Assembly: GCF_003253705.1 (NCBI RefSeq)
Contig: NZ_QKYU01000008.1
Span: 1 to 64,000, forward strand
Direction of reading: 5' to 3'
Source: Humitalea rosea
Lineage (GTDB): Bacteria > Pseudomonadota > Alphaproteobacteria > Acetobacterales > Acetobacteraceae
DNA: 64,000 bases
Shown here: positions 35,145 through 64,000 of the stretch, piece after piece
Layout: each line of letters opens with the position of its first letter
Position numbering within the stretch: the stretch's first letter is position 1
Translations under genes and position numbers: made by a program
Notes under the pieces: model-generated
What the model saw: only the letters and a program-made list of their open reading frames with translations
What the model was told of the DNA's origin: nothing
The model's database searches: none

Positions 35145-35620
35145 TAGGGAGTCCCGATCTGTGTTGGACGTGATTCAAGGCGGCCTTGGGCGTGATGGAC
35201 GATTGGTGCTGAGCGATACGGCATGGGAGCGGATGGCGCCGCAAGGGCGTGTGATGGCGCATCTTCGAGGCCATGTCGGACGACCCTGACTTCGAATACC
35301 TGATCGTCGACAGCACCATCATCCGTGCCCATCAACACGCCGCCGGCGCCCCAAAGGGGGTCTGAAGATCAGGCCCTTGGCCGTTCCCGCGGCGGGCTGA
35401 GCACCAAGATCCATCTGGCCGTCCGGGGCCTCGGCATGCCTGTGCGCTTTACGCTGACCGGCGGCCAGCGCGGCGATTGTCCGCGGACCCACGCCCTGAT
35501 CGAGAACCTGCCCGCCGAGGTCGTCATGGCCGACACCGCCTACGACCGCCGATCCTCTGCCACGCGCCACGAGAAGACCACAAGACACTACCGCGCCATC
35601 GTCACCATCCTAATGCCTAT
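35145..35620 (+). pseudogene. Decayed IS5-family (IS427-like) transposase
   Basis: Fragments in at least two frames match the IS5-type DDE transposase: an N-terminal LSDTAWERMAP piece (about 35209), then MSDDPDFEYLIVDSTIIRAH from 35273 with the first catalytic Asp, and after a +1 frameshift SEDQALGRSRGGLSTKIHLA to ENLPAEVVMADTAYD with the second Asp. A deletion then joins this to a C-terminal RHEKTTRHYRAIVTI piece. The left end (about 35145-35170, GGGAGTCCCGATCTGTGTTG) looks like the element terminus. The element is dead. Boundaries are approximate. Confidence 0.8.
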
Positions 35621-35649
35621 GGCAAGTGTCCACAGGGCCAGCATTACAG

Positions 35650-36020
35650 TTGTATTTTGGTTTACGGTGTAAGAGCCGCGCTGCGGCTTGATGCGGCGGA
35701 TTTCCTGGATCGACCAACGGATCAGCGCAGGCGCGACAGCGTCCTCATCCTGGGTTGTGTTTTTGGGGGCGTCGTGGTGTTCGCATGATGCCGGATGGCC
35801 TGCTGACGCCAAGGGCCGGGGTCGCCGGTCGCCTCCGCCCGCATCCATCCGGTCTTGCGCCGTGGAGTTGCCCAGCAGCCCATCCAGGAACAGCCCCGCC
35901 GAAGCCGCTACCCGCGCTTGCGTGAACAAGGGGCGCATGCGTGCCTTGATGTCACGCAGCGAGGCAGCCCAGAGCTCCAGCGATCGTCTCGACCGATGCG
36001 CCAGACATCCATGACCTCCC
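35650..36020 (-). pseudogene. Decayed IS701-family transposase remnant
   Basis: On the minus strand, MSGASVETIAGA (another frame) and LELWAASLRDIKARMRPLFT followed by QARVAASAGLFLDGLLG match the N-terminus of IS701-type transposases. The reading frame then shifts (a degenerate copy of the usual RKTGWMRAEAAGDPGPWRQQA), and a C-terminal RWSIQEIRRI piece follows directly, so most of the catalytic core is deleted. Not functional. Boundaries are approximate. Confidence 0.7.
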
Positions 36021-36511
36021 AAATCATGGCTGCCCAGTGATTGCCAGGCCTGCTGTATCTCCGTCTTCAGCGGCACTGACGCGGCTCGGGCAATGGCCAT
36101 CGTGAAACGCGGCCGATACCATCGTATGGCGTCCAATCTGGAGCGGCATCTGCGGATCATATGAGAGCGACATCTCAGAGCCTCACAATGCGGTCTGGAG
36201 GGAAGTCCTGAACATCGGGCAAAAGCCCGCCCGGTCTCGGAGCCCGGTCTCGGAGATCAACCTCGCGTCCTGGGCCTCCATTCGGCCACGGCCGCCGCCT
36301 GCCGCGACCGGGGGACCTCGCCGAGTGGCTTCTGCTGGCGAAGCCTGTGCAACCCGGGCACAACCCATCCAGACGCACCCCGATATTTTGCACGTTGCGC
36401 AACAGGATTTTACCAGAAAGCCGTTGCTATATCTACAATCTATCGTGTTCCCGCTGGCGCCTACCCTATTGGGATGGCATCATCGAACATCACCAGCGCG
36501 AGGATACCGCC
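36021..36511. other. 491-bp non-coding stretch between IS debris and the EPS island
   Basis: No convincing gene. Residual IS-like sequence continues to about 36165, then a 13-bp perfect tandem repeat (36230-36255), and then a locally AT-rich segment from about 36385 to 36480 with a GTTGCGCAAC palindrome and TATATC/TACAAT-like words that could hold the promoter of the downstream FkbM gene. Confidence 0.5.
36230..36255. repeat. 13-bp tandem duplication
   Basis: CCCGGTCTCGGAG occurs twice head-to-tail (36230-36242 and 36243-36255), at the edge of the IS graveyard. It may be a slip or a scar of transposition. Confidence 0.9.
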
Positions 36512-39503: not shown

Positions 39504-40672
39504 TCGACGGGCTCCCATGCGGCGCTGCGTGTGGCCCCGGGCGCGGCCATGGCCTCCGTCGCCAGGGCGACGACGCGGCGCGCATGGCCGCTCCAGGTCA
39601 GATCCCGCCGCAGTATGGCGGCCCGCGCCGCCTCACCCAGCCCCCGGCGCAGCTCCGCGTTGCGCGCCAGCAGCAGCACATTCGCCCAGAAGGCCTCGGG
39701 GTGACGAGGATCGAACAGCAGGCCGGTGCTGCCATGTTCCAGCAACTCGCGCAGATTCGCCTGATCGGGGGCGAGGATCGCCCGCCCGGCCGCCATGTAT
39801 TCCAACACCTTCAGCGGGCAGGCATACGCCACCGCCGCCGGCTGCAGCGCGATGTCGAAGCCCGCGATCAACCCCGGCACCGCGGTGCGCGCGGCGAGCC
39901 CGGTGAAGCGCAGCCGGTCGGCGATGCCAAGCTCCGCCGCAAGCCGCTCCAGGCCCGGCCGCGCCGGCCCATCGCCGACGATCTGCAACACCATCCGCGG
40001 CTCACCCTTCCAACCCGCGATGCCGCGCAGCAAAGCATCCAGCCCGTGCCAGTCACGCAGGAAGCCGATGAAGCCGAGCACGATCTCTCCCCCTTCGGGC
40101 CGGGCCGGAGCGGGCGGAAAATCGCGCGGGTCGATGCCATTCGGCACCACCGCGATGCGTGACACCGGCACGCCGGCCGCGACGATATGCTTGGCCAATA
40201 CCGCGGTGACCGGCAGCACGCGTGTGGCCCGACGCCAGACGAAGCGTTCGCCCGCGGCAGCGATGCGCCGCAGCGCCAGCCCGCCGAAGCGCGCGCGTTC
40301 CTGCGCCAGCGGCGCATTCACCTCAAGCAGGAGCGGCAGCCCCCGTCGCCATGCCACCAGCGCCCCGGCGAAATGGAACAGATTGGCGCGTTCGTAGATG
40401 ACATCGGGGTGGAAGGCTGCCGCGGCACGATCCAGTCGCCAGCTCGCGGGAAGGGCATAGGCGAGCTCGGCCAATTCCCCGACCCAGGCCGGCAGCAGCC
40501 GCCGGATCAGTGCCACCATGCGGCTGTCCTCGCCAAGGCCGGTGGTGGCGAAGCCCGCCGGCCCCACGACGCGGACCTCATGCCCCGCCGCGCGCAGCGC
40601 CGCGACCATGGCCTCCAGATGCACCGACTGCCCATCGCGCGACCGGATGCGGTGGCTGTAAAGGATCTTCAT
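39500..40672 (-). CDS. Glycosyltransferase family 4
   Basis: 390 residues. MKILYSHRIRSRDGQSVHLE is the N-terminal fold; the GT4 domain carries VLGFIGFLRDWHGLDALLRG, LQIVGDGPARPGLERLAAEL and KVLEYMAAGRAILAPDQANL. This resembles the exosortase-locus PEP-CTERM/EPS glycosyltransferase group. The stop overlaps the next start and the start overlaps the GNAT stop (ATGA), so these genes form one translationally coupled operon. Confidence 0.9.
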   Translation of the reverse strand: MKILYSHRIRSRDGQSVHLEAMVAALRAAGHEVRVVGPAGFATTGLGEDSRMVALIRRLLPAWVGELAELAYALPASWRLDRAAAAFHPDVIYERANLFHFAGALVAWRRGLPLLLEVNAPLAQERARFGGLALRRIAAAGERFVWRRATRVLPVTAVLAKHIVAAGVPVSRIAVVPNGIDPRDFPPAPARPEGGEIVLGFIGFLRDWHGLDALLRGIAGWKGEPRMVLQIVGDGPARPGLERLAAELGIADRLRFTGLAARTAVPGLIAGFDIALQPAAVAYACPLKVLEYMAAGRAILAPDQANLRELLEHGSTGLLFDPRHPEAFWANVLLLARNAELRRGLGEAARAAILRRDLTWSGHARRVVALATEAMAAPGATRSAAWEPVE

Positions 40673-41757
40673 GCGCACCCCTCCACCGATTGCAGCCACC
40701 CCGCGATCCGCCGGCGGCCCTGGCCCATCGTCTGCCGCGCCAGTTCGAGCATCCCGGCCGGATGCCACGGGTCGGTCAGCGCGACGCCGATGCGTTGCCG
40801 CCGTTGCGTGACCCACTGCGCCTTGTACGGATCATCGCCCCGGCCGAAGTCCAGTTCGGCGACACCGACATCGTCGATCAGCCCGCGAATCATCAGCGCC
40901 GTCAGCGCCGTGCCGGGGGATGCCGCGCGCTGCGCCTCGTCATGCGCGAGCTTCAGCAGCGCCGCGCGCCCCCCGGAAACAACCCAGTACTGCGCCGCCA
41001 CCGGCCGCTCCTCCCGATCGCGCAGCACGCCGAGGCGCAGCAGCCCCGCGGCGGCCGCGGCCCGCATCAGCGCCGCATCGAAATCGGGGAAGGGTTCGGC
41101 GGGCTTCCAGCTGCGGTCGCGCACCGCGACATAGGCGGCGATCCCGGCCTCCAGCGCGGGCCCCGGTGCGGTCATCAGGCTGAACCGCATCTCGCGCCCG
41201 GCGCGGGCCAGCTTGCGCAGGATGGTGGTGCGCAGGACCGGCGGCCGCGCCGCGAGATAGCCCGACCAGCTGAGGCCCGGCGGCAAAGCCTCCCGCCAAT
41301 TGCCGAAATGGCGGTAGCGGCCGAGCGCCAGCCCCGCCGATGCCACGCCCTCCAGGATAGCCTCCAGCCCCGGCGTGTCATCCGCCAGCGCCTCCAGGAG
41401 CGTCGGGCCGCGCCGACGCAGCAGCCGGGCGAGGCCGCGCCCTGCCGCCCTCAGCGTCCCGGGCCCGGCCCCCGCCGCGTTCAAGGGGCGCCAACTGAGC
41501 GTATAGGGCGTCACCAGGCTGCGGAGCCGGCTGCCCTGCCGCAGCAGGGGCAGCAGCACCGCATCCGAGCGGCCGCAGACGGCAAGCACCGGCTCCGATC
41601 CCACCGGCAGCGCATGCGCCAGGATGCTGTCGTACCAGACCCGGCCGGCGAAGAAATCGCCGCTGTCCCCGGCTGCGAGATAGGCGTCGCACCAAGCCGG
41701 AAGACAGGACCGGGCCAGCGGGATCAGCCGTGCGGCGGGGTCAGTCGCGAAGCGCAT
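40669..41757 (-). CDS. GNAT/FemAB-like acetyltransferase (BcsL/CelD type)
   Basis: 362 residues. Long N-terminal half with WYDSILAHALPVG, then a duplicated GNAT fold as in FemAB/CelD proteins: RFSLMTAPGPALEAGIAAYV, SWKPAEPF in the middle and QYWVVSGGRAALLKLAHDEA, ALTALMIRGLIDDVGVAELD and FGRGDDPYKAQWV at the C-terminus. Such proteins acylate or aminoacylate sugars in exopolysaccharide loci; substrate unknown. Its start lies 17 bases inside the YdcF gene. Confidence 0.8.
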   Translation of the reverse strand: MRFATDPAARLIPLARSCLPAWCDAYLAAGDSGDFFAGRVWYDSILAHALPVGSEPVLAVCGRSDAVLLPLLRQGSRLRSLVTPYTLSWRPLNAAGAGPGTLRAAGRGLARLLRRRGPTLLEALADDTPGLEAILEGVASAGLALGRYRHFGNWREALPPGLSWSGYLAARPPVLRTTILRKLARAGREMRFSLMTAPGPALEAGIAAYVAVRDRSWKPAEPFPDFDAALMRAAAAAGLLRLGVLRDREERPVAAQYWVVSGGRAALLKLAHDEAQRAASPGTALTALMIRGLIDDVGVAELDFGRGDDPYKAQWVTQRRQRIGVALTDPWHPAGMLELARQTMGQGRRRIAGWLQSVEGCA

Positions 41758-42493
41758 AGACGAGCCTCCCCACCCATTCGCGAAGCGCGAACCAGCTTTC
41801 CGGCAACCGGTCGGGCCGCGGCATCCAATCGGCCCAGGACAGGTCCGGCGCGCGGCCGAGGCGCAGCGGCGCCGGCACCGTCGCCAGCCCCTGCCGCGCG
41901 AAGGCGGCCAGCGCGCGCGGCAGGTGCCAGGCGTGGCTGACGACATAGGCGGAGCCGATCCCGTCGGCGCGCAGCAGCGCGGCGCTGAAGGCGGCGTTGT
42001 CCCGGGTATCGGCGGCATGGGCCTCGATCCAGCGCGCCGGGGTGCCGAAATCCTCGGCGAGGCTGCGGGCCATCAGCACCGCGATCGCCGGATCGCCCGG
42101 CGACAGCACGCCGCCGGTCACCAGCAGCGGCAGGCCGGTGCGGCGATGCAGCGCCGCCCCCGCGCGCAGCCGCTCCAGCGTCAGCGGGCCGACCTCGGCG
42201 CCACCGCTGCCATGCGCCACCTCGGCGCCCAGCACGATGATCGCGCCGGGGCTGGCGGGGCCCTGTTGGGCGGTGTCGCGGCCGAGCTCGCGTTCCAGCG
42301 AGAACATCAGCAGCCCGGCGATGGCCGGGGTCGCCAGCAGCAGGACCAGTGCGGCACTGAGCACCACCCATGGCCCCGCCCGCCGCGCCCCACCCCAGGC
42401 CAGGATGCCGCCGAACAGGCAGGCGATCACCAGCCCGAGCGGCGGCAGCACCAGCGCGGTCAGAACCTGTTGCAGCGACAGCACCGCGGGCAT
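41741..42493 (-). CDS. YdcF family protein (DUF218, ElyC/SanA-like)
   Basis: 250 residues. Two N-terminal membrane helices (about residues 11-55), then the DUF218 domain: GAIIVLGAEVAHGSGGAE, GPLTLERLRAGAALHRRTGL, PLLVTGGVLSPGDPAIAVLM and VVSHAWHLPRALAAFARQGL. Family members affect envelope polysaccharide and carrier-lipid balance, so it fits an EPS locus. Overlaps the GNAT gene by 17 bases and touches the fusion gene stop. Confidence 0.85.
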   Translation of the reverse strand: MPAVLSLQQVLTALVLPPLGLVIACLFGGILAWGGARRAGPWVVLSAALVLLLATPAIAGLLMFSLERELGRDTAQQGPASPGAIIVLGAEVAHGSGGAEVGPLTLERLRAGAALHRRTGLPLLVTGGVLSPGDPAIAVLMARSLAEDFGTPARWIEAHAADTRDNAAFSAALLRADGIGSAYVVSHAWHLPRALAAFARQGLATVPAPLRLGRAPDLSWADWMPRPDRLPESWFALREWVGRLVYALRD

Positions 42494-44813: not shown

Positions 44814-45854
44814 ATGACTGTGCGGATCTATTCCACCCCGGTGCGGAGCTTCGAGGAGCTCGGCGCCGACTGGCGCGCGCTGGAGGCCGAGGTTCCCGGA
44901 CGCTCCTTCTTCCAGTCCTGGAGCTGGGTCGGTTGCCTCGCCGAGGAACGCTATCCCGATCCCGTGCTGCTGCGCGCCGAGGCGGAGGGGCGCACCCTGG
45001 GGCTTGCGCTGTTCAACCGGCGCCAGGGCCGGCTCTGCCTCGCGGAAAGCGGCGATGCCGCGCTGGATGCACCGTTTATCGAGCACAATGCACCATTGAG
45101 CCTCGGTGACGACATCCGGCGCGGCCTGTTGCGCGCGGCCTGGGGCGTGGCGGGCGCACGCCGGCTCGTGCTCAGCGGCGTGGCGCCCGAGGTCCTGCAC
45201 GCGGCGGGCGGCACCGCGCTGCGGCTGCAGGCGCGTCCGGCGCCGCTGGTGGATCTCGGCGCGGTGCGGACGGCGGGGGGGGACTACCTCGCGACCCGCA
45301 GCGCCAATACCCGCTATCAGCTGCGCCGCTCCGCCCGCTTCTACGCGGCGGGCGGCGAGGTGCTGTTGCAGCGCGCCGCCGATGCGGCCGAGGCGCTGGA
45401 TTGGTTCGATGCCTTGCTGCGGCTGCATGAAAGCACCTGGCGCGAACGCGGCGGCGCCGGCGCCTTCGCAACCCCCTTCCTGCAACGCTTTCATCGCAGC
45501 CTGATCGCGCAAGGGGCTTCGCGCGGCGAGGTCGACATGCTGCGCGTGACCGCCGGGGAGCAGGAGGTCGGGTATCTCTACAACCTGCGCCTCGCCGGGC
45601 GCGTCTTTGCCTATCAGAGCGGGCTCGACCACGCCGGTGCCGGCACGCATGGCAAGCCGGGGCTGACCTGCCACGCCATGGCGGTGCAGCGGGCACTGGA
45701 GATGGGCGATGCCATCTATGATTTCCTGGCCGGGGCGGACCAGTACAAGCGCAGCCTCGCCACCGGCAGCGAGCCGATGGTCTGGGCAGAGCTGTTGCCT
45801 GTCTGGTCGCCCCTGGGCATGGCCGCCCGGCTGCGGCGGCTGGTGCTGCGCTAG
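44814..45854 (+). CDS. GNAT/FemAB-like acetyltransferase (second copy)
   Basis: 346 residues. Same class as the 40.7-kb gene: SFFQSWSWVGCLAEERYPDP N-terminal signature, STWRERGGAGAFATPFLQRF in the middle, then VGYLYNLRLAGRVFAYQSGL, KPGLTCHAMAVQRALEMGDA and YDFLAGADQYKRSL as the second GNAT unit. The QYKRSL ending matches BcsL/CelD proteins linked to exosortase EPS clusters. Divergent from the GT4-deacetylase fusion, with 50 bp between starts. Confidence 0.83.
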   Translation: MTVRIYSTPVRSFEELGADWRALEAEVPGRSFFQSWSWVGCLAEERYPDPVLLRAEAEGRTLGLALFNRRQGRLCLAESGDAALDAPFIEHNAPLSLGDDIRRGLLRAAWGVAGARRLVLSGVAPEVLHAAGGTALRLQARPAPLVDLGAVRTAGGDYLATRSANTRYQLRRSARFYAAGGEVLLQRAADAAEALDWFDALLRLHESTWRERGGAGAFATPFLQRFHRSLIAQGASRGEVDMLRVTAGEQEVGYLYNLRLAGRVFAYQSGLDHAGAGTHGKPGLTCHAMAVQRALEMGDAIYDFLAGADQYKRSLATGSEPMVWAELLPVWSPLGMAARLRRLVLR

Positions 45855-46824: not shown

Positions 46825-48354
46825 CTAGCCCTGACGCACTGCGCCGAGGCGCTGGCGTAAGACCCGTCCGCCCATGCGGCGGAGAAGCCCGATCATGTCG
46901 GCCTCGGCGCCCGCCGGGCAACCGGCGGCGAACCAGGCGGTCGCAAGCATCGCGGTGAAGCTGACAACCCCAAGCGGGATCGACACCAGCAGCATCCGTG
47001 CCGCCGTGGCGGCCGCCTCGGGCGGCGCGGTCCAGCCGAGGCCGCTCGCCCACAGCAGCACTGCCATCACCGCCGTGGCCAGCGCCGGGCGCTGGATGCA
47101 GGCGAGGAACTGCCGCAGCGGCAGTTGCAGCAATCGCAGGGCGCAGGCGACCAGCACCACATGCTCGGCAACGACGGCGGCCCCCACGGCGATGCCGGCC
47201 CCGAGCAGCCCATAGGCAGGGGTCAGCACCAGCAGCAGCACCACGCGCAACGCCGCCGAGGCAGCCGTCACGCCGAAGATGCCGCGCAGCATCGTCTTGG
47301 CGCTGAGCAGCGCGGCGCTGACGTTGCCGAACAAGGTCAGCGTGCAGGCAATGCCCAGGATGGTGACGAGGGGTGCGGCCTCAAGCCACGCGGGGCCGAA
47401 GGCCAGCGCCACCACCGGCCCCGCCACCAGCGACACACCGACGCCCGCCGGCAAGGTCAGCAAGGCTGTCAGTGCGACGATCCGCAGGTAGGAGGATTTC
47501 AGCTCGGCACTGCCGCCGCGCAGCGACGCGGCGAAGCTCGGCATGCAGGCGCGGCAGATGGGGTCTACCATCTCGGTCGTCGGCAACACGGCGACCTCGA
47601 CGCCCACGGCATAGATGCCGAGCGGCGTCGGCCCCAGGATGCGGCCGATCACCATGCTGTCGGCGCGGTCACGCACCAAGGTGACGATGCTGATCGCCCA
47701 GGCCCAGCAGGAGACGCCGGCCAGATCCCGCCACGCGGACAGGGAGAGGCGAGGGCGGTAGGGGTGCAGCAGATGGCTCATCGCGACGATGCCGAGGCGA
47801 TTGGTCAGGATGCCCAGCACCAGCGCCCAATGGCTGCGCAGCACCCAGGCGCCCACGACCGTCACCACGATACCGGCGAGGCGCGGCACGAATTGCAGCT
47901 GGAACTCCTTGTTGAACATCAGGCGGCGGCGGAAATCGGCAACCCCGACATTCGTCGCGCCACTCAGCGCCGCCGAGACGGCAAGCGCCAGCAGCACCGG
48001 CTCCAGCCTCGGCTCGCCAAAGAACCCCGCCGCCGGCCCCGCCGCGATGGCGATCAGCCCACCCACGACGAAGGAGCGCAGCAGGTTCAACGTAAAAGCT
48101 GTGTCGTACAGCGCGGGGTGTGGATCTTGGGCACGGACGATCTGATCCTCCACACCGATGGCAAGACAGACATCCAGCGCCAGCGCGAAGGCGGTCGCGA
48201 GCGCGACCAGCCCGAAATCCCCGGGCGGCAGCAGGCGGACCAGCACCAGCGTGCTGGCAAGCCCCAGCAGCCGCGTCATCATCCGCCAGGCGATGACCCA
48301 ACTCGCGCCACGCGCCGTGCGCGCAAGGATGCTCTCCGGCACACCATCGCTCAT
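46825..48354 (-). CDS. Polysaccharide flippase (Wzx/PST family)
   Basis: 509 residues with about 12-14 membrane helices. MATE/MVF-like fold: RTARGASWVIAWRMMTRLLG and VLVRLLPPGDFGLVALATAF near the N-terminus are typical of the O-antigen translocase group. It should flip lipid-linked repeat units to the periplasm. Stop/start overlap with asnB upstream by four bases. Confidence 0.9.
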   Translation of the reverse strand: MSDGVPESILARTARGASWVIAWRMMTRLLGLASTLVLVRLLPPGDFGLVALATAFALALDVCLAIGVEDQIVRAQDPHPALYDTAFTLNLLRSFVVGGLIAIAAGPAAGFFGEPRLEPVLLALAVSAALSGATNVGVADFRRRLMFNKEFQLQFVPRLAGIVVTVVGAWVLRSHWALVLGILTNRLGIVAMSHLLHPYRPRLSLSAWRDLAGVSCWAWAISIVTLVRDRADSMVIGRILGPTPLGIYAVGVEVAVLPTTEMVDPICRACMPSFAASLRGGSAELKSSYLRIVALTALLTLPAGVGVSLVAGPVVALAFGPAWLEAAPLVTILGIACTLTLFGNVSAALLSAKTMLRGIFGVTAASAALRVVLLLVLTPAYGLLGAGIAVGAAVVAEHVVLVACALRLLQLPLRQFLACIQRPALATAVMAVLLWASGLGWTAPPEAAATAARMLLVSIPLGVVSFTAMLATAWFAAGCPAGAEADMIGLLRRMGGRVLRQRLGAVRQG

Positions 48355-50282
48355 GGTGACGGCACCGCGAGTCTCTCCTCCGGCATGGTCAGCCGCATGC
48401 CCCCGATGTCGGCGAGAAAACCCTCAAGGACCAACAACTGCCAGAGCGCCTGGGAATGATCGAAGCTGCCGGCCATATGCTGGTCCACCAGCCGTGCCAG
48501 GGCCGGTGCGTCGAAGACTCCGCTGTCCAGCATCGGCCCGCCGAGCAGGCGCGCCCGCACCGCCCCCGCCTGGGCCCGCAACTGTTGCCCGATCGGGGCG
48601 GCGAAGCCCTGCTTGCGACGCTGCAGCACCTCGGCTGGCAGGATCGAGCGCAGCGCGACGCGCAGCAGGTGCTTGCCCTGGCCCCCTTGGAGCTTCAGCC
48701 CGGCGGGCAGCGCCAATCCCCAGGCGGCCAGCGTCGGGTCGAGCAGCGGTGGCCTGACTTCGAGCGACACCGCCATGCTGGTGCGATCGACCTTGGTCAG
48801 AATATCGCCGGGCAGATAGGTGTGCAGATCGGCATATTGCGCTTGCAGCAACGAGTCATCAGGATCGCACTCCTCCATCAGCGCGCCGAAGCGCGCGGCC
48901 GGATCATGGCCATCGACCGCCGCGCGCATCCCCGGCGACAGCAACGCGCGGCGACGCTCCTGCCCGATGCGGGAAACGGTGCCGTAGTAGCCGAGCGCGC
49001 TGTCCAGGCTGATTTCGGTCAGCGTGTGCTTCGCCCGCAGCCAGCGCGGCGCGCGGTCGAGCTTGGGGTAGGCGCGCGCGAGCCCGCCGATCACCGGACG
49101 GCGAATCCGCGCCGGAATATGCCGCCGCACCGCCTCGGCCATCTGGTGCCAGCGGTAGCGGCGGTAGCCCGCGAAGACCTCGTCGCCGCCATCGCCCGAG
49201 AGCGCCACGGTGACATGCCGCCGCGCCAGGCGGCAGACCGCCAGTGTCGGGATTGCTGACACATCGCCGAAGGGTTCGCCGAACAGCGCCGCCTGGTGCC
49301 GGGCGGCGGCGACGTAATCGCTCGTCGCCATCGCCTCATGGTGCCGGGTGCCGAGCTGGGCCGCGAGATGCGCCGCCTGCGCCCGCTCATCGCACTCCCC
49401 GTCGAAGCCGATCGTAAAACTGTCCAACGGGCCCTTGGTCGCGGCGGCCGCGAGGGTGGTGATCGCGCCTGAGTCGATGCCGCCCGACAGGAAGCAGCCA
49501 AGCGGCACATCGGACATCAGCCTCAGGCGCACCGCCTCGTGCAGCCGCGATGCAAGCTCGCGGCCACCATCCCTCGGTGCCGCCACCACCTGCGTCGGAG
49601 GCTGCCAATAGCGTCGGGGCGGCGGCAGCGCGCCGATGCTCGCGCGATGCAGCACCAGATAATGTGCCGGCGGCAGACGGCGGATATCGGCATAGATCGT
49701 GTTGGGGTCGGGCACGTAGCCGAGGGCGAGGAAATCATCCAGCGCCGTGGGGTCGAGCCGGCGTGACAGCCCCGGCAGCATCAGCAAGCCCGCGATCTCG
49801 GAGGCAAAGGCGATGGTGCCATCGGGCAGGCGCGCGTAATGCAATGGCTTCTCGCCCAGCCGATCGCGCGCCAGCACCAACTGGCCGCGCTCACGATCCC
49901 AGAGCGCGAAGGCGAACATGCCGTTCAGGCGATCGAGGCAGCCCGGCCCCCACTCCCGCCACGCATGCAGGATGGCCTCGGTATCCGAACGTGTGCGGAA
50001 GTGGTGCCCCAGCGCCTCGAGATCCCGCCGCAGCGCCTCATGATTGTAGATCTCGCCGTTGAAGGAGATGACGAGGCTGCCATCCGCGTTGCTCATGGGC
50101 TGCGCGCCGCCGGCCAGGTCCACGATCGCAAGCCGGCGATGGCCGAGCGCCAGACCCGGCTCCGCGTGGTAGCCCGCGCCATCCGGACCGCGATGACGCA
50201 GCGCATCGGCCATCCGCCGGACGAGGCCGCTATCCGGCGACCTTGGGCTGGTGGGATGGAAAAGGCCAACCACGGCACACAT
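48351..50282 (-). CDS. asnB: Asparagine synthase-like amidotransferase (exosortase-locus type)
   Basis: 643 residues. N-terminal glutaminase: Cys2 nucleophile (MCAVVGLFHPTSP), RHRGPDGAGYHAEPGLALGH, and SFNGEIYNHEALR. The C-terminal AsnB ATP-pyrophosphatase has the P-loop FLSGGIDSGAITTLAAAATK and VALSGDGGDEVFAGYRRYRW. This enzyme class in exosortase A loci is thought to amidate a sugar acid rather than make free asparagine; the sequence alone cannot separate these. First gene of the flippase-GT2 operon. Confidence 0.9.
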   Translation of the reverse strand: MCAVVGLFHPTSPRSPDSGLVRRMADALRHRGPDGAGYHAEPGLALGHRRLAIVDLAGGAQPMSNADGSLVISFNGEIYNHEALRRDLEALGHHFRTRSDTEAILHAWREWGPGCLDRLNGMFAFALWDRERGQLVLARDRLGEKPLHYARLPDGTIAFASEIAGLLMLPGLSRRLDPTALDDFLALGYVPDPNTIYADIRRLPPAHYLVLHRASIGALPPPRRYWQPPTQVVAAPRDGGRELASRLHEAVRLRLMSDVPLGCFLSGGIDSGAITTLAAAATKGPLDSFTIGFDGECDERAQAAHLAAQLGTRHHEAMATSDYVAAARHQAALFGEPFGDVSAIPTLAVCRLARRHVTVALSGDGGDEVFAGYRRYRWHQMAEAVRRHIPARIRRPVIGGLARAYPKLDRAPRWLRAKHTLTEISLDSALGYYGTVSRIGQERRRALLSPGMRAAVDGHDPAARFGALMEECDPDDSLLQAQYADLHTYLPGDILTKVDRTSMAVSLEVRPPLLDPTLAAWGLALPAGLKLQGGQGKHLLRVALRSILPAEVLQRRKQGFAAPIGQQLRAQAGAVRARLLGGPMLDSGVFDAPALARLVDQHMAGSFDHSQALWQLLVLEGFLADIGGMRLTMPEERLAVPSP

Positions 50283-54767: not shown

Positions 54768-55997
54768 CTACAGCGGCGCGAAATACCGGGGCGCGGCCGG
54801 GGTCGCCGGCACCAGCTTGGGAAAGCCCCGGGTCACGATGCCGCGCCAGATGCGGGACAGCGCCTCCGGGCCGCGGCCATCGCGCAGCCGCGCGAGTGCG
54901 GCGGTCTGCTGGCCATATCGCGCGGTATCCATGCCGGCCATCACCGCATGCAAGGCCGCCTGCATCCCTTCGAGATCATCGCAGAGATGGCCGATGTCCT
55001 CGCCCTGGCGGAAGAGCGATTCGGTGATCGGCACGCGGCTGGCGATGACGGGCTTGCCCCAGGCCACGGCATCCATCAGCCCCCCGCTGGGCGACAGGCT
55101 GTAATACCCAGGCTGCAGCGGCAGGAAAACGTAGTGCAGCCGCGCCAGACCGGCCACGAATTTCTCCCGGCTGATGTGCCCGATCTCGACCTCATGCGCG
55201 ATGTCGGCGAAGCGCTCGCGCGGCGTGGTATGCGGCCGGCCGCCGATGATGTGGAATTCGATCGCATCGCCATAGCGCTGCCGGAACAGCCGCGCGGTAT
55301 CGAGGAAGGCGGTCAGCCCCTTCGCCTCCGTCGCCATGCCGACCAGGCCGACGCGCAGCGGCACCCCCAGCCCCGGTGCCGGATGCCCCGCGGCCTCTCG
55401 CCCATCCACCGGATGCGGCAACACATCGGTGCGCAGCGCGGTCTCGGGCAGGATCATGGCCAAGGCGTCGCGGATGCAATCCTCGAAGACCAGGAACCGC
55501 AGCATCGGATTCGGCAGGCTCAGCATGGAGCGCAGGTCGAAGCGCCGCGCCACCGGGTTGCGCGGCCGCCAGCCGATCACCTCATTCAGGTTCCCATGCA
55601 GCCCGACCTGCACCGCAACCGGCATGGGCGCCGCCGCGGCCGCCATCACCGCCGCGGCGATGGCCGTGGGCGTCGCGGAGGCGAGGACGATGAGATGCGG
55701 CTGCCGCACCGGCGCCGCCGCCAGTGCCGCGCGCAGCACCCGCCACTCATGCAGGAAGCGCCGTGCCGAGACGACATGCGTCTTCCAGCGGTACAGCGGC
55801 GACAGCGCGATCGGCTTGAATTCGACATTCAGCAGCCGCTCGATCGCGCGGTCGTCCCGAAGTGCGGCCAGATGATCGGCATCGGCATGCATGCGGATCT
55901 GCTGGCGCGGAAAGGCCAGCGACATCGCCTGGAGCAAGCCACGGTTGATCGGCACATGCCCGGTGCCGGTATTGGTCATGTCGAAGACCAGGATCAT
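54768..55997 (-). CDS. GT-B glycosyltransferase
   Basis: 409 residues. MILVFDMTNTGTGHVPINRG is the N-terminal glycine-rich acceptor loop; the C-terminal half carries VGLVGMATEAKGLTAFLDTA, IEFHIIGGRPHTTPRERFAD, and FLPLQPGYYSLSPSGGLMDA then VAWGKPVIASRVPI, a GT4-like donor site in which a Ser/Pro/Gly motif replaces the usual Glu-rich signature. Family assignment is by fold, not a close hit. Convergent with the GT2 gene. Confidence 0.72.
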   Translation of the reverse strand: MILVFDMTNTGTGHVPINRGLLQAMSLAFPRQQIRMHADADHLAALRDDRAIERLLNVEFKPIALSPLYRWKTHVVSARRFLHEWRVLRAALAAAPVRQPHLIVLASATPTAIAAAVMAAAAAPMPVAVQVGLHGNLNEVIGWRPRNPVARRFDLRSMLSLPNPMLRFLVFEDCIRDALAMILPETALRTDVLPHPVDGREAAGHPAPGLGVPLRVGLVGMATEAKGLTAFLDTARLFRQRYGDAIEFHIIGGRPHTTPRERFADIAHEVEIGHISREKFVAGLARLHYVFLPLQPGYYSLSPSGGLMDAVAWGKPVIASRVPITESLFRQGEDIGHLCDDLEGMQAALHAVMAGMDTARYGQQTAALARLRDGRGPEALSRIWRGIVTRGFPKLVPATPAAPRYFAPL

Positions 55998-56004
55998 GGC
56001 TGCC

Positions 56005-58107
56005 TCACCGGGCGCAGGGCCGCGCTTCGCCACGCGGCACGATGTGGAGGATCGGATCGCGGATGAAATCCTGCCGCCGGGTGAAGGGCGGCGCCTCGGC
56101 CAGCAGCGCGACATAGGTGCCGCGCGCCTCGGCCGAGCCCAGCACATCCGACACCGCCGCCAGGGATTGCAGCGCGAGCTGGCCGTAATCGCCCTCGGTC
56201 TTGCTCCAGCCCTGGCCATTCGACAGGCCGCGCGCCCGCGTGGCGGCGCCGATCTCGGACCAGCTGCGCAGCGGCTGCCCGTTCGGCGACTGGATCGCGA
56301 TCAGATAGGCCGCGCCATCATGCATGGCGAAGCCGCGCGGGGCGGCGTTGAAGCGCCCGACAAGGAAGCTCGCCATCCAGCCCAGCACCACGCGCGCATC
56401 CTCGCCACCGCGCCGGGCCGCATTCGCGGCGGTGGAGGCGAAGTAGTCCTGCTGCCACGGCGGCAGCACGCCCGGCGCGCCATATTCGCCGGGGATCCAG
56501 CCATGGGCGTCGCCCTGCTGAATGGTCCAGCCACGGATCTGGGCGCGGACCCAGCCCCAGTTGCCGGCGGCGGCGCCGCGCAGCCAGGGCAGGTTGGGGT
56601 CGTCCGCAGGGCTCGCCCATGCGGCATTGTCGAGCTGGCGCAGCGACCAGGCGGCCCCGCGCACCTGGTTGCCGCGCACGACATTCACGCCCTCGCCGAT
56701 GCCGCCATCGCGCCCGCCGCCCCGGGCCGCCGCCGCGGGCCATTGCGAGATGACGCACCAGGAGGCCTGGGCCTGCACTTCATCGAGGAAGGCGCGCCGG
56801 CCGGTCAGCAGATAGGGCACGAAGGCGAGGTCAGGCTGATGCGCGCAATCGGCCGCCCAGCCGGTATCGCCGGCGATCGGCTGCAACAGCCCGCCCGGCG
56901 CCGGCCCGCCGCGCCCATCGCTCCAGAGCCGCGGCCAATGATCGGTGTCGATCCAGCCCCCCGCCCCGCCGGCGCCGCCTGCCGGGTCCCAGTAGTGCCA
57001 GGGGATGGCGCCGGCCGCCTCGGCCTGGCCAATGGCGAAGGACGCGGCGCGGGCATCGCCGCTGATCAGCCACACCGCCTGCGGCATGGTCGCCGGGCCG
57101 ATATCGGCCCGGGCCCCGGTCTGCCCCATGTTCTGGGTGATCCCGCGTGTATCGAAGGGCTCCTGCCAGGCCGGTGCGGCCATCAGCCGCGCCATGCGGC
57201 CCACCAGCGCGTCATCGACCCCGGTCGAGACGTCATAGCGGGCGATGGCCCCGGCATCGGCGAGATACTCGGCATCATGCCGCACATGGGCGGGCGCGGG
57301 CGCCGCACCGCCACGCGCCGCCGCCGCCTCGCGGCCCCAGGCGGTGTACTGGTGGTGGCGCGGGATATCCGCGCGGATCGCCTCGCGCCCATCCAGCACC
57401 AGCCGGGCGCCATAGGCGGCCTCACCGCCACCGGGCCGCATCGCGACATCATTGCGGAACCAGCAATCGACCCAGAGCGTGCCATCGGCGCGCAGGGCGA
57501 CATCGGCCACGACCCGCAGCGAGGTCACTCCCCCCGCGACCTCCGGCGGCACCGGCGCCACCACCCGTGCCGCGACCGCGAGCGGCCCGGCCTGCCACGG
57601 CGGCGTGGTCACGGCGGCGCCGAAGGGGCGCAGCAGGTCGAGTTCCCAGGCGCGCCCCCCGGCGAGCGGCCGGACCCCCACCACCGCCTGCCGCCCGGCC
57701 AGTGCCGCCGTGGGATCCATCCGCCATGCCGGTGGCGCCGCCGCGCGCGACAGCACCACCCCGGCCCGCGCCCCCGCCGCCAACGCCGGGCAGGCCAGCG
57801 CGATCACCGCCAGCCGCACCGAGCCGTCGGGATGCCGCGCCTTCGCATCCATCTGCACCGCCAGGGTGCCACCGCCCGTGAGCCGCGCGGCAAGCCCCGC
57901 CTCCGCCGGCACATCGCCCGGCCGGAAGGCCTGGCCGAAGACGGCGATGCTGCCGGCGGGGGTGCCCCTGCCCTCCAGCACCAGGCCGAGCACATCGCCC
58001 TCCTGCCCGGCGCAGGGCATCGGCGGGCTCCGCACCTCCGCTTGCGCGGCATGGGGCAGCGCGAGGCTCGCGCCCCCGGCGGCGAGCAGGATGCGGCGCC
58101 TCAGCAT
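56005..58107 (-). CDS. Large exported protein, possible RIFT-barrel polysaccharide-active enzyme
   Basis: 700 residues. A Sec/Tat-like signal (MLRRRILLAAGGASLALPHA, cleavage near AQA) precedes a beta-rich N-terminal half with VQMDAKARHPDGSVRLAVIA, which resembles the RIFT-barrel pattern of PcRGLX/YetA (exo-rhamnogalacturonan lyase-like) proteins. The C-terminal half is Trp- and His-rich (IPWHYWDPAGG, WIDTDHWPRLWSDG, WGWVRAQIRGWTIQQGDAHG), suggesting a carbohydrate-binding cleft. No catalytic residues can be assigned. It lies between two glycosyltransferases, so it may process the exported polymer. Confidence 0.45.
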   Translation of the reverse strand: MLRRRILLAAGGASLALPHAAQAEVRSPPMPCAGQEGDVLGLVLEGRGTPAGSIAVFGQAFRPGDVPAEAGLAARLTGGGTLAVQMDAKARHPDGSVRLAVIALACPALAAGARAGVVLSRAAAPPAWRMDPTAALAGRQAVVGVRPLAGGRAWELDLLRPFGAAVTTPPWQAGPLAVAARVVAPVPPEVAGGVTSLRVVADVALRADGTLWVDCWFRNDVAMRPGGGEAAYGARLVLDGREAIRADIPRHHQYTAWGREAAAARGGAAPAPAHVRHDAEYLADAGAIARYDVSTGVDDALVGRMARLMAAPAWQEPFDTRGITQNMGQTGARADIGPATMPQAVWLISGDARAASFAIGQAEAAGAIPWHYWDPAGGAGGAGGWIDTDHWPRLWSDGRGGPAPGGLLQPIAGDTGWAADCAHQPDLAFVPYLLTGRRAFLDEVQAQASWCVISQWPAAAARGGGRDGGIGEGVNVVRGNQVRGAAWSLRQLDNAAWASPADDPNLPWLRGAAAGNWGWVRAQIRGWTIQQGDAHGWIPGEYGAPGVLPPWQQDYFASTAANAARRGGEDARVVLGWMASFLVGRFNAAPRGFAMHDGAAYLIAIQSPNGQPLRSWSEIGAATRARGLSNGQGWSKTEGDYGQLALQSLAAVSDVLGSAEARGTYVALLAEAPPFTRRQDFIRDPILHIVPRGEARPCAR

Positions 58108-59526: not shown

Positions 59527-60861
59527 TCATTGCGGCGCGGCCCGGGCAAAGGCCGGCGGCGCGGCGGCACGGCGCCGCCAGCCCGGCATCGCCACCGCGG
59601 CCTGCCCTGTCGGTGCAGCTTGCGCCAGCGCGGCCCGCGCCAGCCCATAGGCCCCCGCGACCACGACCAGCAGCGTCCAGTAGAAATCCCAATAGGACAG
59701 CGAAAGGAATGTCCCGCTGACCAGGTAAGCCACGATGGAGACCTGCGCCATGCGGCCAAGGTCATGCGCCCAGGCAAGCTCCGGCCGGTCGCGCGTCATG
59801 CGCTGAAGGCGCAAGGCATAGATCACGGTCATCACCGTCAGCCCGAACCAGACGAGGAAGGTCGGGAAGCCGTGTTCGCCCAGCATCTCGAACCAGATGC
59901 TGTGCACGGCGCGGGCGGGGCCGCCGGGGGCCACGGTATCCACCGCCGATTGCGTATAGGGGCCGGTGAAGCCCGCCCCCACCAGCGGCCGGCTCAGCGC
60001 GAGCTTGAAGGAGATGCCCCAGAGCACCAGCCGTTCGGAGGCGGATTCATCCTGCTGGTAGGTGGAGATGGTGTTCATCCGGCTGGTCCAGCCATCGGGC
60101 ATGAAGGAGATCGCGCCCGCGACGCAGCCGGCGAGCACGATGCCGGAGACGACCTTGCCCTTGCTCCGCACCCACATCATCAGGGTCACCGCCGCGAGGC
60201 CGAGCAGCGCGCCGCGGGAATAGCTCGCGATGGTCGCGAGCAGGGTCAGCGCCATGGCGATGGCCAGCCCGACCCGCACGATGTGCCGCGCGGATTGCAT
60301 CCGCAGATAGTTCATCAGCGGCAAGGTCACCAGCATGGCCGCGGCCAGATGGTTGTTGTCGGTGATCATCGTCTGCGCCGGGCCCCAGACCCGGTAGTTG
60401 CCGCCATTGACGATGGCGAAGATGCCGCCGCGCACGCCGTAATAGCCCAGCGAGATCGCCATGACCCAGACCAGCGCATGGATGCGCCGCCGGTCGGTGA
60501 GCAGCGCCGCCGTCACCAGCAGCCCGATCAGCACCTTGAAGACATGCTCCCACTTGGTCCAGACCGCCGCAGGATCGCCGAGCGCCACCGCCGAGGTGAG
60601 GGTGAAGCCGAACATCATCACCAGCAGCAGCACCGTCACCCCATTCCAGGCGAAGCGCTTCGGCTCCCCCGCGAGCAGGCAGCCGAGCAGGGTCGCGAGG
60701 AACACCGTCATCGCCCAGGGCAGTTCCGAGGCCGGACCCCAGACCAGCCGGTGCGGGTTCATGAAGGAGATCCACGACCACAGCAGGATGCCGGCGAAGG
60801 GCCGCGCCACCGCCAGCGCCAGCAGCAGCAGCATCGCCAGGATGAAGATGGCATCACGCAT
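59527..60861 (-). CDS. O-glycosylation ligase, exosortase A system-associated
   Basis: 444 residues with about ten to eleven membrane helices. N-terminal DUF5935-like block SWISFMNPHRLVWGPASELP near residues 30-49, then a Wzy_C/O-antigen-ligase domain with ITDNNHLAAAMLVTLPLMNY, ATIASYSRGALLGLAAVTLM and the loop with HSIWFEMLGEHGFPTFLVWF (essential-His type). These features define the exosortase-A-linked ligase/polymerase family. It would polymerise or ligate the repeat unit at the periplasmic face. Second gene after prsT, 15 bases downstream. Confidence 0.9.
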   Translation of the reverse strand: MRDAIFILAMLLLLALAVARPFAGILLWSWISFMNPHRLVWGPASELPWAMTVFLATLLGCLLAGEPKRFAWNGVTVLLLVMMFGFTLTSAVALGDPAAVWTKWEHVFKVLIGLLVTAALLTDRRRIHALVWVMAISLGYYGVRGGIFAIVNGGNYRVWGPAQTMITDNNHLAAAMLVTLPLMNYLRMQSARHIVRVGLAIAMALTLLATIASYSRGALLGLAAVTLMMWVRSKGKVVSGIVLAGCVAGAISFMPDGWTSRMNTISTYQQDESASERLVLWGISFKLALSRPLVGAGFTGPYTQSAVDTVAPGGPARAVHSIWFEMLGEHGFPTFLVWFGLTVMTVIYALRLQRMTRDRPELAWAHDLGRMAQVSIVAYLVSGTFLSLSYWDFYWTLLVVVAGAYGLARAALAQAAPTGQAAVAMPGWRRRAAAPPAFARAAPQ

Positions 60862-60876
60862 CTTCGCTATCCCGGC

Positions 60877-63687
60877 TCAACGCCCGCCGCGCAGGTCGCG
60901 CAGCAGCCGCTCGGCCTCGGCCCGTTCAGCGAAGGGCTGCGCGTCGGACATCACCGGCGCCAGCACCGACAGCGCCTCCTCCCGCGCCCCCGTCGCCTGC
61001 AGGGCATAGGCGAGGCGGAAGGAGGCCGCGGGGTCGGGCCGGGACATCGCGGCCCGCGCCACGGCGGCCTGCCGCAGCAGCGGCACCGCCTGTGCCGGCT
61101 GGCCGCCCCGCGCCAGGATCCAGCCCAGCGTATCCGCGGTGTCGATATTGGGTGCGAGGTAATAGGCGCGTTCCGCCAGGGCCCGGGCCGTCGCGTCATT
61201 GCGCTGGCCGAGCAGCCAGGCGAGGTTGTTCAGCGCCACCGCATCATCGGGCCGGTGCGCCACCACCTGACCGAGACGGGTCTCCGCCTCCTCCAGCCGG
61301 CCGGCGCCGATGTCGAGCTGCGACAGCAGCAGCAAGGCATCATCATTGGCCGGTTCCCGCTGCAGCCAGTCGCGCAGGGCAAGGGCCGCCTCGTCGAACT
61401 GGCGCGCGGCGATGCGGGCGCGGGCCAGACGCAGGGCGAGCGGCGCCGAGGGCGTCTCGGCATAGGCCGCGGCAAAGGCCTGGGCCGCATCCTGCGGCCG
61501 CTCCGCCGCCATCAGCAGATCGCCGCGCAGGGTCCGCGACGCCGGCTGCGCCTCGGCCTGCCGCGCCAGCCGGTCGGCCAGCTCCAGCGCCGCATCCGTG
61601 CCGCGCGCGCGCAGCACGAGGGTCGCCAGCGTGGCTTGCAGCGCCGCATCGCCGGGCTTCCGCCGCAGGCCAAGCTGGATCAGCGTCTCCGCGCCCGACA
61701 GGTCACCGGCATGGACCAGAATCCCCGCAAGCTGCTGCCGCGCCACGGTGGAGTCCGGCGTCTCGGCCAGGGCCTGGCGGCTGGCCGCCTCGGCCAGCGC
61801 CCATTGGTCGGCGGCGGCATGCGCATCCGCCCGGGCGATGAGCAAGGCCGGGCTGTGCTGCTCGCGCAGCAGCGGCCCCGCGGTCAACACCTCGGCGGCT
61901 TGCGCGGCCTCACCATGCCGCATCAGCACGTGCGCCAGCAGGAGGGCGAGGCGCGCGTCGCCCGGCGCCGCGGCCTGTGCCTGCGCCAGCACGGCGCGGG
62001 CCTCGGCCGCGCGGGGGCTGCCGGGCATCGCGGCGGCGGCCAGCTGCGCGGCGGCCTCGGCATTGCCGGGCACGGCGCGCAGCGCCTCGCCCAGCAGGCG
62101 CTCGGCCTCCGCCGGCTGCCCCCCGATCCGCGCCAGCCGGACAAGGCCAAGCCGGGCCGGCACCGAATTGGGATGATCCGCCAGGACCTTGGTGAAGGTG
62201 GCGCGCGACTGTTCGAGCTGTAGCTGCATCAGCTGCGCGGTGCCGGCCAGCACGCCCGCCGCCTCGCCATCGCGCGCCGCCGGGTCCAGCCGTTCCAGCT
62301 CGCTGCGCACGGTCGCGAGATCGCCCCGGTAGAGCGCGGCAAAGGCCAGCAGCTCCCGCGCGCCGTGACGCGAGGGATCGGCCCGCAGCACCTCCCCCGC
62401 CGTCGCCGCGGTGCCGGCGACATCGCCCGCGACCAGCCGCGCCGCCGCGAGATGCGACAGGATCTCGGCGTTTTGCGGCGCCAGCCCGGCGGCGCGCTCG
62501 AAGGCGGCGATGGCCTCCTGCCGCCTGCCCGCGGCACCATGCAGCCGGCCCAGCAGGTCGAGGCTTTCGGCATCCGCCCCGCCCCGCTCCGCCAGCCGCG
62601 TCAGCACCGCCGTCGCATCGCCGAGCCGGTTCGCCGCGAGATCGAAGGCGGCCACCAGCCTGGCGCCGCGCGGATCATCGGGACGCCGGGCGAGGTGGCG
62701 CCGGGCGGCATCCTCGGCCTGCGCCGTCTGGCCCAGGCCGCGCTTGGCCATGGCCTGCAACAGATAGCCATCGGGAAAATCACCGAGCACGGGCCCGATC
62801 CGCTGGATCTCGGCATCGACCCCGGCCCAGTCCCGCGACTGCGCCAGCAGCATCGCCCGCAGGTAGTGGCCGGCAACGCTGCCGGGCAGCACGGCCAGGG
62901 CGGCATCGATGTCCTGCTTCGCCTCGGCGGCCTGGTTGAGCCGCAGCAGGATCTCCGCCCGCCGCAGCCGGGCCGGGACATTGCCCGGCGCGATCGCCAC
63001 GATGCGGCCGAAGGTTTCCGCCGCGGCACGGGCCTCGTTGCGGTCCAGCAGCAGCACGCCCTTCCGCACCAGGGCGTCGATGGAGGCCGGATCGCGGGCC
63101 AGCACGGCATCGACCCGCGCCTCGGCGCCGGCGCGATCGCCGGTCGCCGCGGCCACGGCGGCGGCGGCCAGTTCCGGCTGCGTCGCGCCCGGCGCCAGGC
63201 GAACCGCCAGTTCCGCGGTCTCGCGCGCCTCATCCTTCCGCCCCAGCGCCAACTGCGCCAAGGCCCGCCCCGCCGCGACCTGGCCCCCGGCCGGGGTGCC
63301 CGGCCCGGGCTCGGGGAAGGCATCGAGCAAGGGGTTGAAGCGGCCGGCGAGGAGATAGGCGCGCATCAGCAGCGTGGTGCCGGCCGCGGGGTCGTAGCCC
63401 CGCTCCAGCGCCGCGCGGGCCTCCCGCTCAGCGGTCTCGCCATCGCCGAGTTCGAGGCTGGTGGCTGCAAGAGAGGCGCGCCGCGCGGCGGAGGCCGGCT
63501 CCTCGCGCACGGCATTGCGCCATTCGATCTGCGCCGCCCGCAGATCGCCGCGCGCCGCCGCCGCCTCGGCCCGTTCCAGCGCCGCCGCCATCGCATCCGG
63601 CGCCCCCGCCAGGAGCACGCCGCCGAGAAAGGCGGCACCGAACAGGCCATGCGCGGTGCGGCGGGAGGAGGGGTTCATGCGGGACAT
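60877..63687 (-). CDS. prsT: PEP-CTERM system TPR protein PrsT
   Basis: 936 residues. Signal peptide RRTAHGLFGAAFLGGVLLAG with an AxA site (DAMAAA) then over 20 TPR-like helix pairs. Length, export signal and repeat spacing match PrsT, the TPR partner of exosortase A loci, thought to organise the envelope assembly. ATG 63687 follows GGAGG by about six bases; an upstream ATG at 63771 gives an Arg/Pro-rich extension. Thirteen bases after the PrsR stop, so the two are co-transcribed. Confidence 0.9.
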   Translation of the reverse strand: MSRMNPSSRRTAHGLFGAAFLGGVLLAGAPDAMAAALERAEAAAARGDLRAAQIEWRNAVREEPASAARRASLAATSLELGDGETAEREARAALERGYDPAAGTTLLMRAYLLAGRFNPLLDAFPEPGPGTPAGGQVAAGRALAQLALGRKDEARETAELAVRLAPGATQPELAAAAVAAATGDRAGAEARVDAVLARDPASIDALVRKGVLLLDRNEARAAAETFGRIVAIAPGNVPARLRRAEILLRLNQAAEAKQDIDAALAVLPGSVAGHYLRAMLLAQSRDWAGVDAEIQRIGPVLGDFPDGYLLQAMAKRGLGQTAQAEDAARRHLARRPDDPRGARLVAAFDLAANRLGDATAVLTRLAERGGADAESLDLLGRLHGAAGRRQEAIAAFERAAGLAPQNAEILSHLAAARLVAGDVAGTAATAGEVLRADPSRHGARELLAFAALYRGDLATVRSELERLDPAARDGEAAGVLAGTAQLMQLQLEQSRATFTKVLADHPNSVPARLGLVRLARIGGQPAEAERLLGEALRAVPGNAEAAAQLAAAAMPGSPRAAEARAVLAQAQAAAPGDARLALLLAHVLMRHGEAAQAAEVLTAGPLLREQHSPALLIARADAHAAADQWALAEAASRQALAETPDSTVARQQLAGILVHAGDLSGAETLIQLGLRRKPGDAALQATLATLVLRARGTDAALELADRLARQAEAQPASRTLRGDLLMAAERPQDAAQAFAAAYAETPSAPLALRLARARIAARQFDEAALALRDWLQREPANDDALLLLSQLDIGAGRLEEAETRLGQVVAHRPDDAVALNNLAWLLGQRNDATARALAERAYYLAPNIDTADTLGWILARGGQPAQAVPLLRQAAVARAAMSRPDPAASFRLAYALQATGAREEALSVLAPVMSDAQPFAERAEAERLLRDLRGGR

Positions 63688-63700
63688 GGCGGTCCTCCGG

Positions 63701-64000
63701 TCATTCCGTTTCGGGTGAGGCGGGCGGCGCGGGCGTTTCGACGACCGATCCGCGACTGACCGACAGACCATGCGTTTCGAGCAAGGCGTAGATCGTGGGG
63801 CGGCTGACGCCGAGCAGCCGCGCCGCGACCGACAGGCTGCCGTTGCTGCGGGCCAGGGCGCGCTCGATCATGGCGCGCTCGGCCCGCAACCGCGCGGCGC
63901 GCAGGTCGAGGTCGGTGTCGGAATTATCCGGCGGTTCGGCAAGTTCCATGTCGGCCGCGGTGATCATCTGGCCATCGGCCATCAGCGCCGCGCGCCGCAC
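63701..64000 (-). CDS. prsR: PrsR-type response regulator, C-terminal fragment (runs off window)
   Basis: The last 99 residues are visible. RRAALMADGQMITAADMELA is the linker after the AAA+ domain of NtrC-family activators, and RAMIERALARSNGSLSVAAR with LLGVSRPTIYALLETHG is a Fis-type helix-turn-helix. Position upstream of prsT supports PrsR, the sigma-54-dependent activator of PEP-CTERM systems. The receiver and AAA+ domains, and the expected PrsK kinase, lie beyond the window. Confidence 0.8.
   Translation of the reverse strand: MRRAALMADGQMITAADMELAEPPDNSDTDLDLRAARLRAERAMIERALARSNGSLSVAARLLGVSRPTIYALLETHGLSVSRGSVVETPAPPASPETE

Follow-up and report, generated by a model that had tools for sequence, protein, structure and literature searches.

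A protein with a predicted RIFT-barrel/toroid fold encoded in an exosortase-A type exopolysaccharide locus of Humitalea rosea

The gene and its exopolysaccharide locus

The analysed window is a stretch of 64,000 nucleotides from Humitalea rosea (contig NZ_QKYU01000008.1, positions 1 to 64,000). The target gene lies in its exopolysaccharide (EPS) locus, together with the following features (all on the minus strand; basis in brackets):

56005..58107, minus strand: target gene, exported RIFT-barrel/toroid protein of 700 aa (ORF and AlphaFold2 model)
58039..58107, minus strand: putative signal peptide, residues 1-23, twin-arginine-like, RRRILLAAGG...AQA (sequence by eye)
57244..58038, minus strand: RIFT barrel and second beta domain, residues 24-288 (AlphaFold2 secondary structure, PF19501 on residues 55-107, hhalign to the PL26 barrel)
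56008..57243, minus strand: (alpha/alpha) toroid, candidate catalytic domain, residues 289-700 (AlphaFold2 models and structure matches)
56638..56841, minus strand: codons of the invariant His423, Arg483, Trp487 and Arg490, first to last (bacterial and phage alignments)
58101..59399, minus strand: upstream GT4 glycosyltransferase (Pfam)
54768..56006, minus strand: downstream group 1 glycosyltransferase; its start codon is uncertain, and the listed ORF reaches 56219 (Pfam)
59527..60861, minus strand: exosortase A-associated O-antigen ligase/Wzy-like protein (TIGR03097, 423 bits)
60877..63771, minus strand: PrsT TPR protein of the XrtA/PEP-CTERM EPS system (TIGR02917, 426.6 bits)
48351..50282, minus strand: XrtA-type amidotransferase, asparagine synthase-like (TIGR03108, 751.9 bits, below the cut-off of 816.9; Asn_synthase, 4.1e-92)

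The target ORF comprises 700 codons and a stop (ORF list and translation), in agreement with the 700-residue protein of the initial annotation, which had given no strand. It is a genuine gene; GC3 is 0.88 vs a GC2 of 0.61 (measured on the 719-codon version with TTG start), and neighbouring genes have similar values. The N-terminus (MLRRRILLAAGGASLALPHAAQA, followed by E) was judged by eye to be an apparent signal peptide, as annotated, and an RRx-hydrophobic motif precedes the domain in 33 of 48 short-form homologues (defined below). For the second half, previously described as rich in Trp and His, only the first part of the description held. In comparison with 58 ORFs of more than 250 aa from a 104-kb region, Trp makes up 5.1% of residues 289-700 (mean 1.6%, 95th percentile 3.1%) and His 1.46% (mean 2.0%).

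The reading frames of GT4 and target share 7 nt (ATGCTGA) at the stop of the former and the start of the latter. This overlap suggests translational coupling, and joint translation of the two is probable. An exosortase gene is located farther along the same contig (PF09721, 7.5e-59). Since the neighbours comprise glycosyltransferases, O-antigen ligase, PrsT and amidotransferase in addition to this exosortase, the EPS setting given by the initial annotation is confirmed and is of the exosortase-A type. No UDP-sugar dehydrogenase was found among the locus ORFs scanned with Pfam, and the two PF00984 matches of the host genome are on other contigs; the scanned ORFs thus give no evidence of the uronic-acid backbone needed for beta-elimination. 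The same EPS region contains three GNAT Acetyltransf_6 (FemAB-like) genes (40669-42018 and 44814-45854 of the window, and G000:C8:75210-76487). At its left edge (window 35325-36160), short ORFs resembling transposase remnants were seen (by eye only).

Predicted fold and conserved residues

Sequence searches with the target yielded no family from NCBIfam, PHROGs or PADLOC, only two PDB matches for the target alone (best E 0.59), and 0 PDB matches at E<=10 by profile. For structure prediction, AlphaFold2 was run with a 23-sequence alignment (full model: pLDDT 89.6, pTM 0.91). The model consists of a RIFT barrel, a second beta domain and an (alpha/alpha) toroid. Fold search, which together with structure prediction had been proposed as a check of the initial annotation, gave a carbohydrate-enzyme fold: all 7 PDB matches at E<=0.001 by Foldseek were chains of the PL26 exo-rhamnogalacturonan lyase PcRGLX (best 4.7e-5), which the initial annotation had named for the fold search. 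In the VIA comparison, the model aligned to 5xqg_D with Z 12.9 and rmsd 4.8 over 508 residues spanning 34-694, with 9% identity. PcRGLX was the only full-length PDB match of the model; other families in the VIA listing had Z 11.4 and below and covered almost only the toroid. The predicted fold thereby supports the annotated reading as a carbohydrate-active enzyme, which may act on the EPS.

The toroid was also folded alone (pLDDT 92.6, 49 sequences). By Foldseek it had no match at E<=0.001. Z scores from 16.9 to 13.8 were obtained among the 50 entries listed, with unsaturated glucuronyl hydrolases, sugar 2-epimerases, BACCELL_00875, YteR, GH48, PL26 and GH76 among the toroid-like proteins. The scores included Z 16.9 for 3wiw (286 residues aligned), 16.5 for 5noa and 16.1 for 1nc5 (YteR; 283 aligned); 3wiw and 1nc5 are members of the GH88/GH105-type families. 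Because its scores for hydrolases, lyases and sugar epimerases are nearly equal, the modelled toroid fits all three about equally, and its fold does not tell the chemistry.

The RIFT-barrel-like segment of the initial annotation was recovered weakly from the target (PF19501 on residues 55-107, 17.0 bits, under the cut-off of 22.1, E 0.0054) and more firmly from the family, in which PF19501 matches 16 of the 23 aligned members at E<=0.1 (best 6.9e-7); the AlphaFold2 model agrees. By hhalign, the barrel aligned to PL26 with E 4.4e-6 (prob 86.7, 62 columns), a significant sequence homology at the profile level. The toroid alone had no significant similarity to the PL26 profile (E 0.04, prob 1.3). 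With a larger profile and a permissive setting that included the barrel, the PL26 alignment extended over 495 columns (E 1e-5, prob 82) and was carried by the barrel. PF21345, the second PL26 domain, was found neither in the host genome in a search of 299 genomes nor in the target by Pfam scan at E<=1; three PL26-type proteins in the same search scored 372.5-477.9 bits, and one of them hits PcRGLX at 2.2e-207. Membership in PL26 was therefore rejected. Since PF21345 is absent and the toroid alone lacks PL26 profile similarity, the target family is treated here as a separate family with PL26 architecture.

Proteins of another lineage containing PcRGLX_1st were encountered at loci L137 (G425) and L138 (G477), the latter without a PDB match. 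At L137, the neighbouring ORF looks by eye like the FemAB/CelD-like GNAT proteins encoded in EPS loci, so these loci may be served by a further PL26-like lineage.

For residue counts, bacterial rows extending from model position <=40 to >=540 and viral rows with a summed score >150 (24 of 31) were used. Gly331, His423, Arg483, Trp487 and Arg490 were invariant in 96/96 bacterial and 23/24 phage rows; the remaining phage row lacks letters at these columns. In the 49 toroids from bacteria and phages, these residues and Gly366 were invariant. Arg333, Asp335, His371, Asp374, Asp420, Asp554, Arg585 and Tyr601 were frequent but not fixed. Asp335 occurred in 91/96 bacterial and 15/23 phage rows, and Asp554 in 94/96 and 16/20, respectively, with Glu in 3 more phage rows. 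As His and Arg are invariant and no acid of the toroid is fully so, the residue pattern leans toward a lyase or an epimerase. A literature search found no paper giving the catalytic residues of PcRGLX.

Relatives in bacteria and phages

The gene had been called an orphan, which did not hold: a second copy is present in the same genome, and there are many homologues. This paralogue (G000:C8:84975-87836, 28 kb away) is 50% identical over residues 52-689. It has 953 aa, no evident signal peptide, two CBM60 stretches (Pfam, E 3.2e-29) and no RTX motif. Family matches at E<=0.001 were obtained in 8 of 60 genomes and in 15 of 385 genomes of the class (host included in both). In the phylum, the family profile matched in 4 of 398 genomes, namely the host, G527 outside the class (E 1e-65) and two with weak short matches. 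A contig scan yielded 102 family-encoding stretches. By record title, the 80 retained are mainly Acetobacteraceae/Roseomonadaceae, with others from Caulobacter, Magnetospirillum, Skermanella and Neomegalonema. In total, bacterial homologues number about 100, mostly from Alphaproteobacteria. A tblastn search with the target gave one matching plasmid record and one matching phage record. Two annotated public records of relatives are labelled 'hypothetical protein' and 'calcium-binding protein', and a literature search over titles and abstract openings, with few subscription journals covered, found no description of the family.

Some homologues are unusual in extent or arrangement. Proteins at L025, L026, L029 and L008 share only the later part of the family model; for those at L025 and L026 (about 520-540 aa), Pfam gave a weak Tat-signal match and otherwise no family. 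Oceanibacterium hippocampi (L117) has three consecutive family copies, whose C-termini follow the pattern LSxxDF. In Siccirubricoccus sp. G192 (L114) and Pseudoroseomonas ludipueritiae (L080), homologues are spread over three and two frames, respectively (pseudogenes or assembly errors).

Full-length homologues fall into two forms, a short form with a signal peptide and a long form with RTX repeats or CBM60 modules, the long copy of the host being of the CBM60 type. The 90 classified sequences comprise 48 short and 42 long forms. These counts cover matches that begin at model position 30 or earlier and extend to at least position 600. The partial loci L007, L008, L025, L026, L029, L030 and L046 were excluded, as was a single partial frame from L120, and three rows truncated by the end of a contig were assigned to neither form. 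RTX-like motifs occur in 34/42 long vs 0/48 short homologues (Fisher 1.7e-17, uncorrected for shared ancestry). A crude signal-peptide proxy (cut-off 1.6) was passed by 33/48 short and 12/42 long forms; most of the 15 short forms below it have, by eye, an RR motif and an Ala-rich stretch, L070 (minus), L108 and L115 being without. All four host-family genomes with two complete copies (G000, G003, G020 and G022, host included) contain one of each form. The host genome encodes a PrtD-type type I ATPase, scoring over cut-off, and the architecture of the long form is consistent with type I secretion. For the paralogue, in which the RTX motif is absent, we infer type I export from architecture alone.

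In the tree, which was computed with FastTree only and has long phage branches, the clade containing the target comprises 34 short forms plus 3 sequences from viral contigs; the paralogue belongs to an adjoining clade of 13 long forms and 1 short form. Most long forms from other Alphaproteobacteria are placed elsewhere. The adjoining position of the two clades suggests a single duplication followed by a compartment split in the target/paralogue group.

For the neighbourhood analysis, 21 locus proteins were used as queries against contig-scan loci of at least 15 kb (53 of 80) and 15 of the 20 loci from searched genomes. At least one EPS-locus homologue was present in 44/53 contig-scan and 13/15 searched-genome loci vs 4/20 control stretches, and at least two in 38/53 and 13/15 vs 2/20; the controls were picked by hand, not at random, and three of the four with any EPS match (L195, L196 and L198) are on family-bearing contigs. 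An O-ligase homologue was found in 32/53 and 6/15 loci vs 0/20 controls, and a GT4 homologue lies directly upstream in 21/42 short-form loci. No EPS-locus homologue was found in 11 of the 68 loci examined, and the surroundings of the Skermanella rosea plasmid copy have no EPS gene among their 19 annotated features. Common descent links the loci, and some belong to the same genome, so the neighbourhood and form counts are not independent trials.

Phage relatives were detected with the family profile at 31 loci on 30 viral contigs, and BFVD contained two structure matches (E 5.9e-13, a Caudovirales protein, and 2.2e-8). PHROGs were applied to 15 flanking ORFs at 9 of the 31 loci; 7 of the 9 have portal, head protease, tail, ejection or endolysin genes, and the other two have no structural neighbour. 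EBPR siphovirus 1 gp39 is a relative and adjoins gp40, annotated as a glycosyl hydrolase. These surroundings suggest that the phage relatives serve as virion-borne depolymerases. Eight of the 31 relatives match only from model position 284 on, corresponding to a toroid without barrel; judged by start and score, four of them are near copies. Several viral loci nearly duplicate each other: L141 and L142 are identical, and L156 and L158 represent opposite ends of a single contig. In the FastTree analysis, L141-L143 (50-53% identical) group with host genes and may be bacterial or prophage DNA rather than phage genes. Of the 24 viral rows, 19 form one side of a tree branch together with two bacterial rows.

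Proposed function and comparison with known systems

We propose that the target is an exported enzyme that cuts the EPS made by the surrounding locus, by either chemistry (probability roughly 0.6). After crossing the inner membrane by means of a Tat-like signal peptide, the protein would work in the periplasm or at the site of export, where its RIFT barrel and its second beta domain would hold the EPS chain. The toroid with His423, Arg483, Trp487 and Arg490 would then cleave the chain, more probably by beta-elimination than by hydrolysis. The 953-aa CBM60 paralogue would be exported through a type I system and would attack the polymer outside the cell. Both proteins would then jointly determine how long the EPS chains are and how the matrix is released, in the manner of ExoK and ExsH with succinoglycan.

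Hydrolysis in the same place and for the same purpose overlaps with this proposal, which spans both chemistries, and is in itself rather unlikely. GH88, GH105 and GH76 enzymes hydrolyse with an Asp pair, and the highest toroid score belongs to an unsaturated glucuronyl hydrolase. Asp335 and Asp554 would provide such a pair and are nearly constant in bacteria, but they are less conserved than His423, Arg483 and Arg490, above all in phages. A polymer-level epimerase or tailoring enzyme, whose toroid would alter sugars of the exported chain without cutting it (e.g. by C5 epimerisation of uronosyl residues), would suit the invariant His, Arg and Trp side chains and the missing invariant acid. It would also suit Z 16.8 of the toroid with cellobiose 2-epimerase and another sugar epimerase, and Z 9.4 of the full model with human D-glucuronyl C5-epimerase (VIA). 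We nevertheless regard it as distinctly unlikely, as the sole full-length match is a lyase and as CBM60, the type-I-like architecture and the phage structural-gene context suit depolymerases better.

A non-catalytic factor for EPS binding or assembly, with an enzyme-like fold, would account for the Trp-rich toroid, and the catalytic residues are unmapped on any solved homologue; the strict His/Arg conservation across bacteria and phages makes such a factor very unlikely. The PL26-like fold would also be expected of a nutritional enzyme acting on plant rhamnogalacturonan, as PL26 does, and placed in the EPS locus by chance. Such an origin is most improbable given the conserved place beside GT4, O-ligase and PrsT homologues in many Acetobacteraceae loci, and no catabolic gene was found among the neighbours scanned.

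The proposal of an EPS-cutting enzyme can be extended, tentatively and at somewhat less than even odds, to a new carbohydrate-active family, probably of lyases, common to Alphaproteobacteria and phages. Hosts would trim their own exosortase-linked EPS with periplasmic and secreted copies, and tailed phages would bear the toroid on the virion to breach it. Some phage forms carry other sequence instead of the barrel, which would make the toroid a catalytic head that can be exchanged. To our knowledge, most enzymes that finish or trim exosortase-A EPS polymers have not been named. A paired family whose predicted fold is clear, with few invariant residues and with phage relatives, would provide a direct entry point to EPS length, to the release of the matrix and to the access of phages, and could be a source of new depolymerases.

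Among known proteins, PcRGLX (PL26; PDB 5xq3/5xqg/5xqj/5xqo) and YetA-like proteins resemble the target in full-length fold and barrel homology. In contrast to them, the target family is located in EPS synthesis loci, has two forms and also occurs in phages, in addition to the low identity, missing PF21345 and unmatched toroid profile described above. With GH88/GH105-type unsaturated glucuronyl hydrolases and the lyase BACCELL_00875, the target has the toroid fold in common; the match covers the toroid, with catalytic residues unmatched.

ExoK and ExsH are GH16 enzymes, and ExoK has a signal peptide. York and Walker reportedly found in 1997 that exsH of Sinorhizobium meliloti acts with prsD/prsE. 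The GH16 fold, to which PrmQ of Sphingomonas is also assigned, differs from that of the target. ExoK and ExsH of S. meliloti are two enzymes with demonstrated activity that cleave succinoglycan to a low-molecular-weight form (PMC4916376). PlyA and PlyB of Rhizobium leguminosarum are described as EPS glycanases secreted by type I (PrsDE) and acting at the cell surface (PMC9298526); they bear Ra/cadherin-like domains and are likened to the target pair by secretion and role. PrmQ, a predicted GH16 enzyme of the Sphingomonas promonan locus whose deletion gives rugose colonies (PMC11340318), is like the target a predicted exported glycan-cutting enzyme encoded with an EPS locus, in its case of the Wzy type. 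By analogy, the target and its paralogue are best read as a periplasmic/extracellular depolymerase pair like ExoK/ExsH, in which two enzymes of an unrelated family would act on one EPS.
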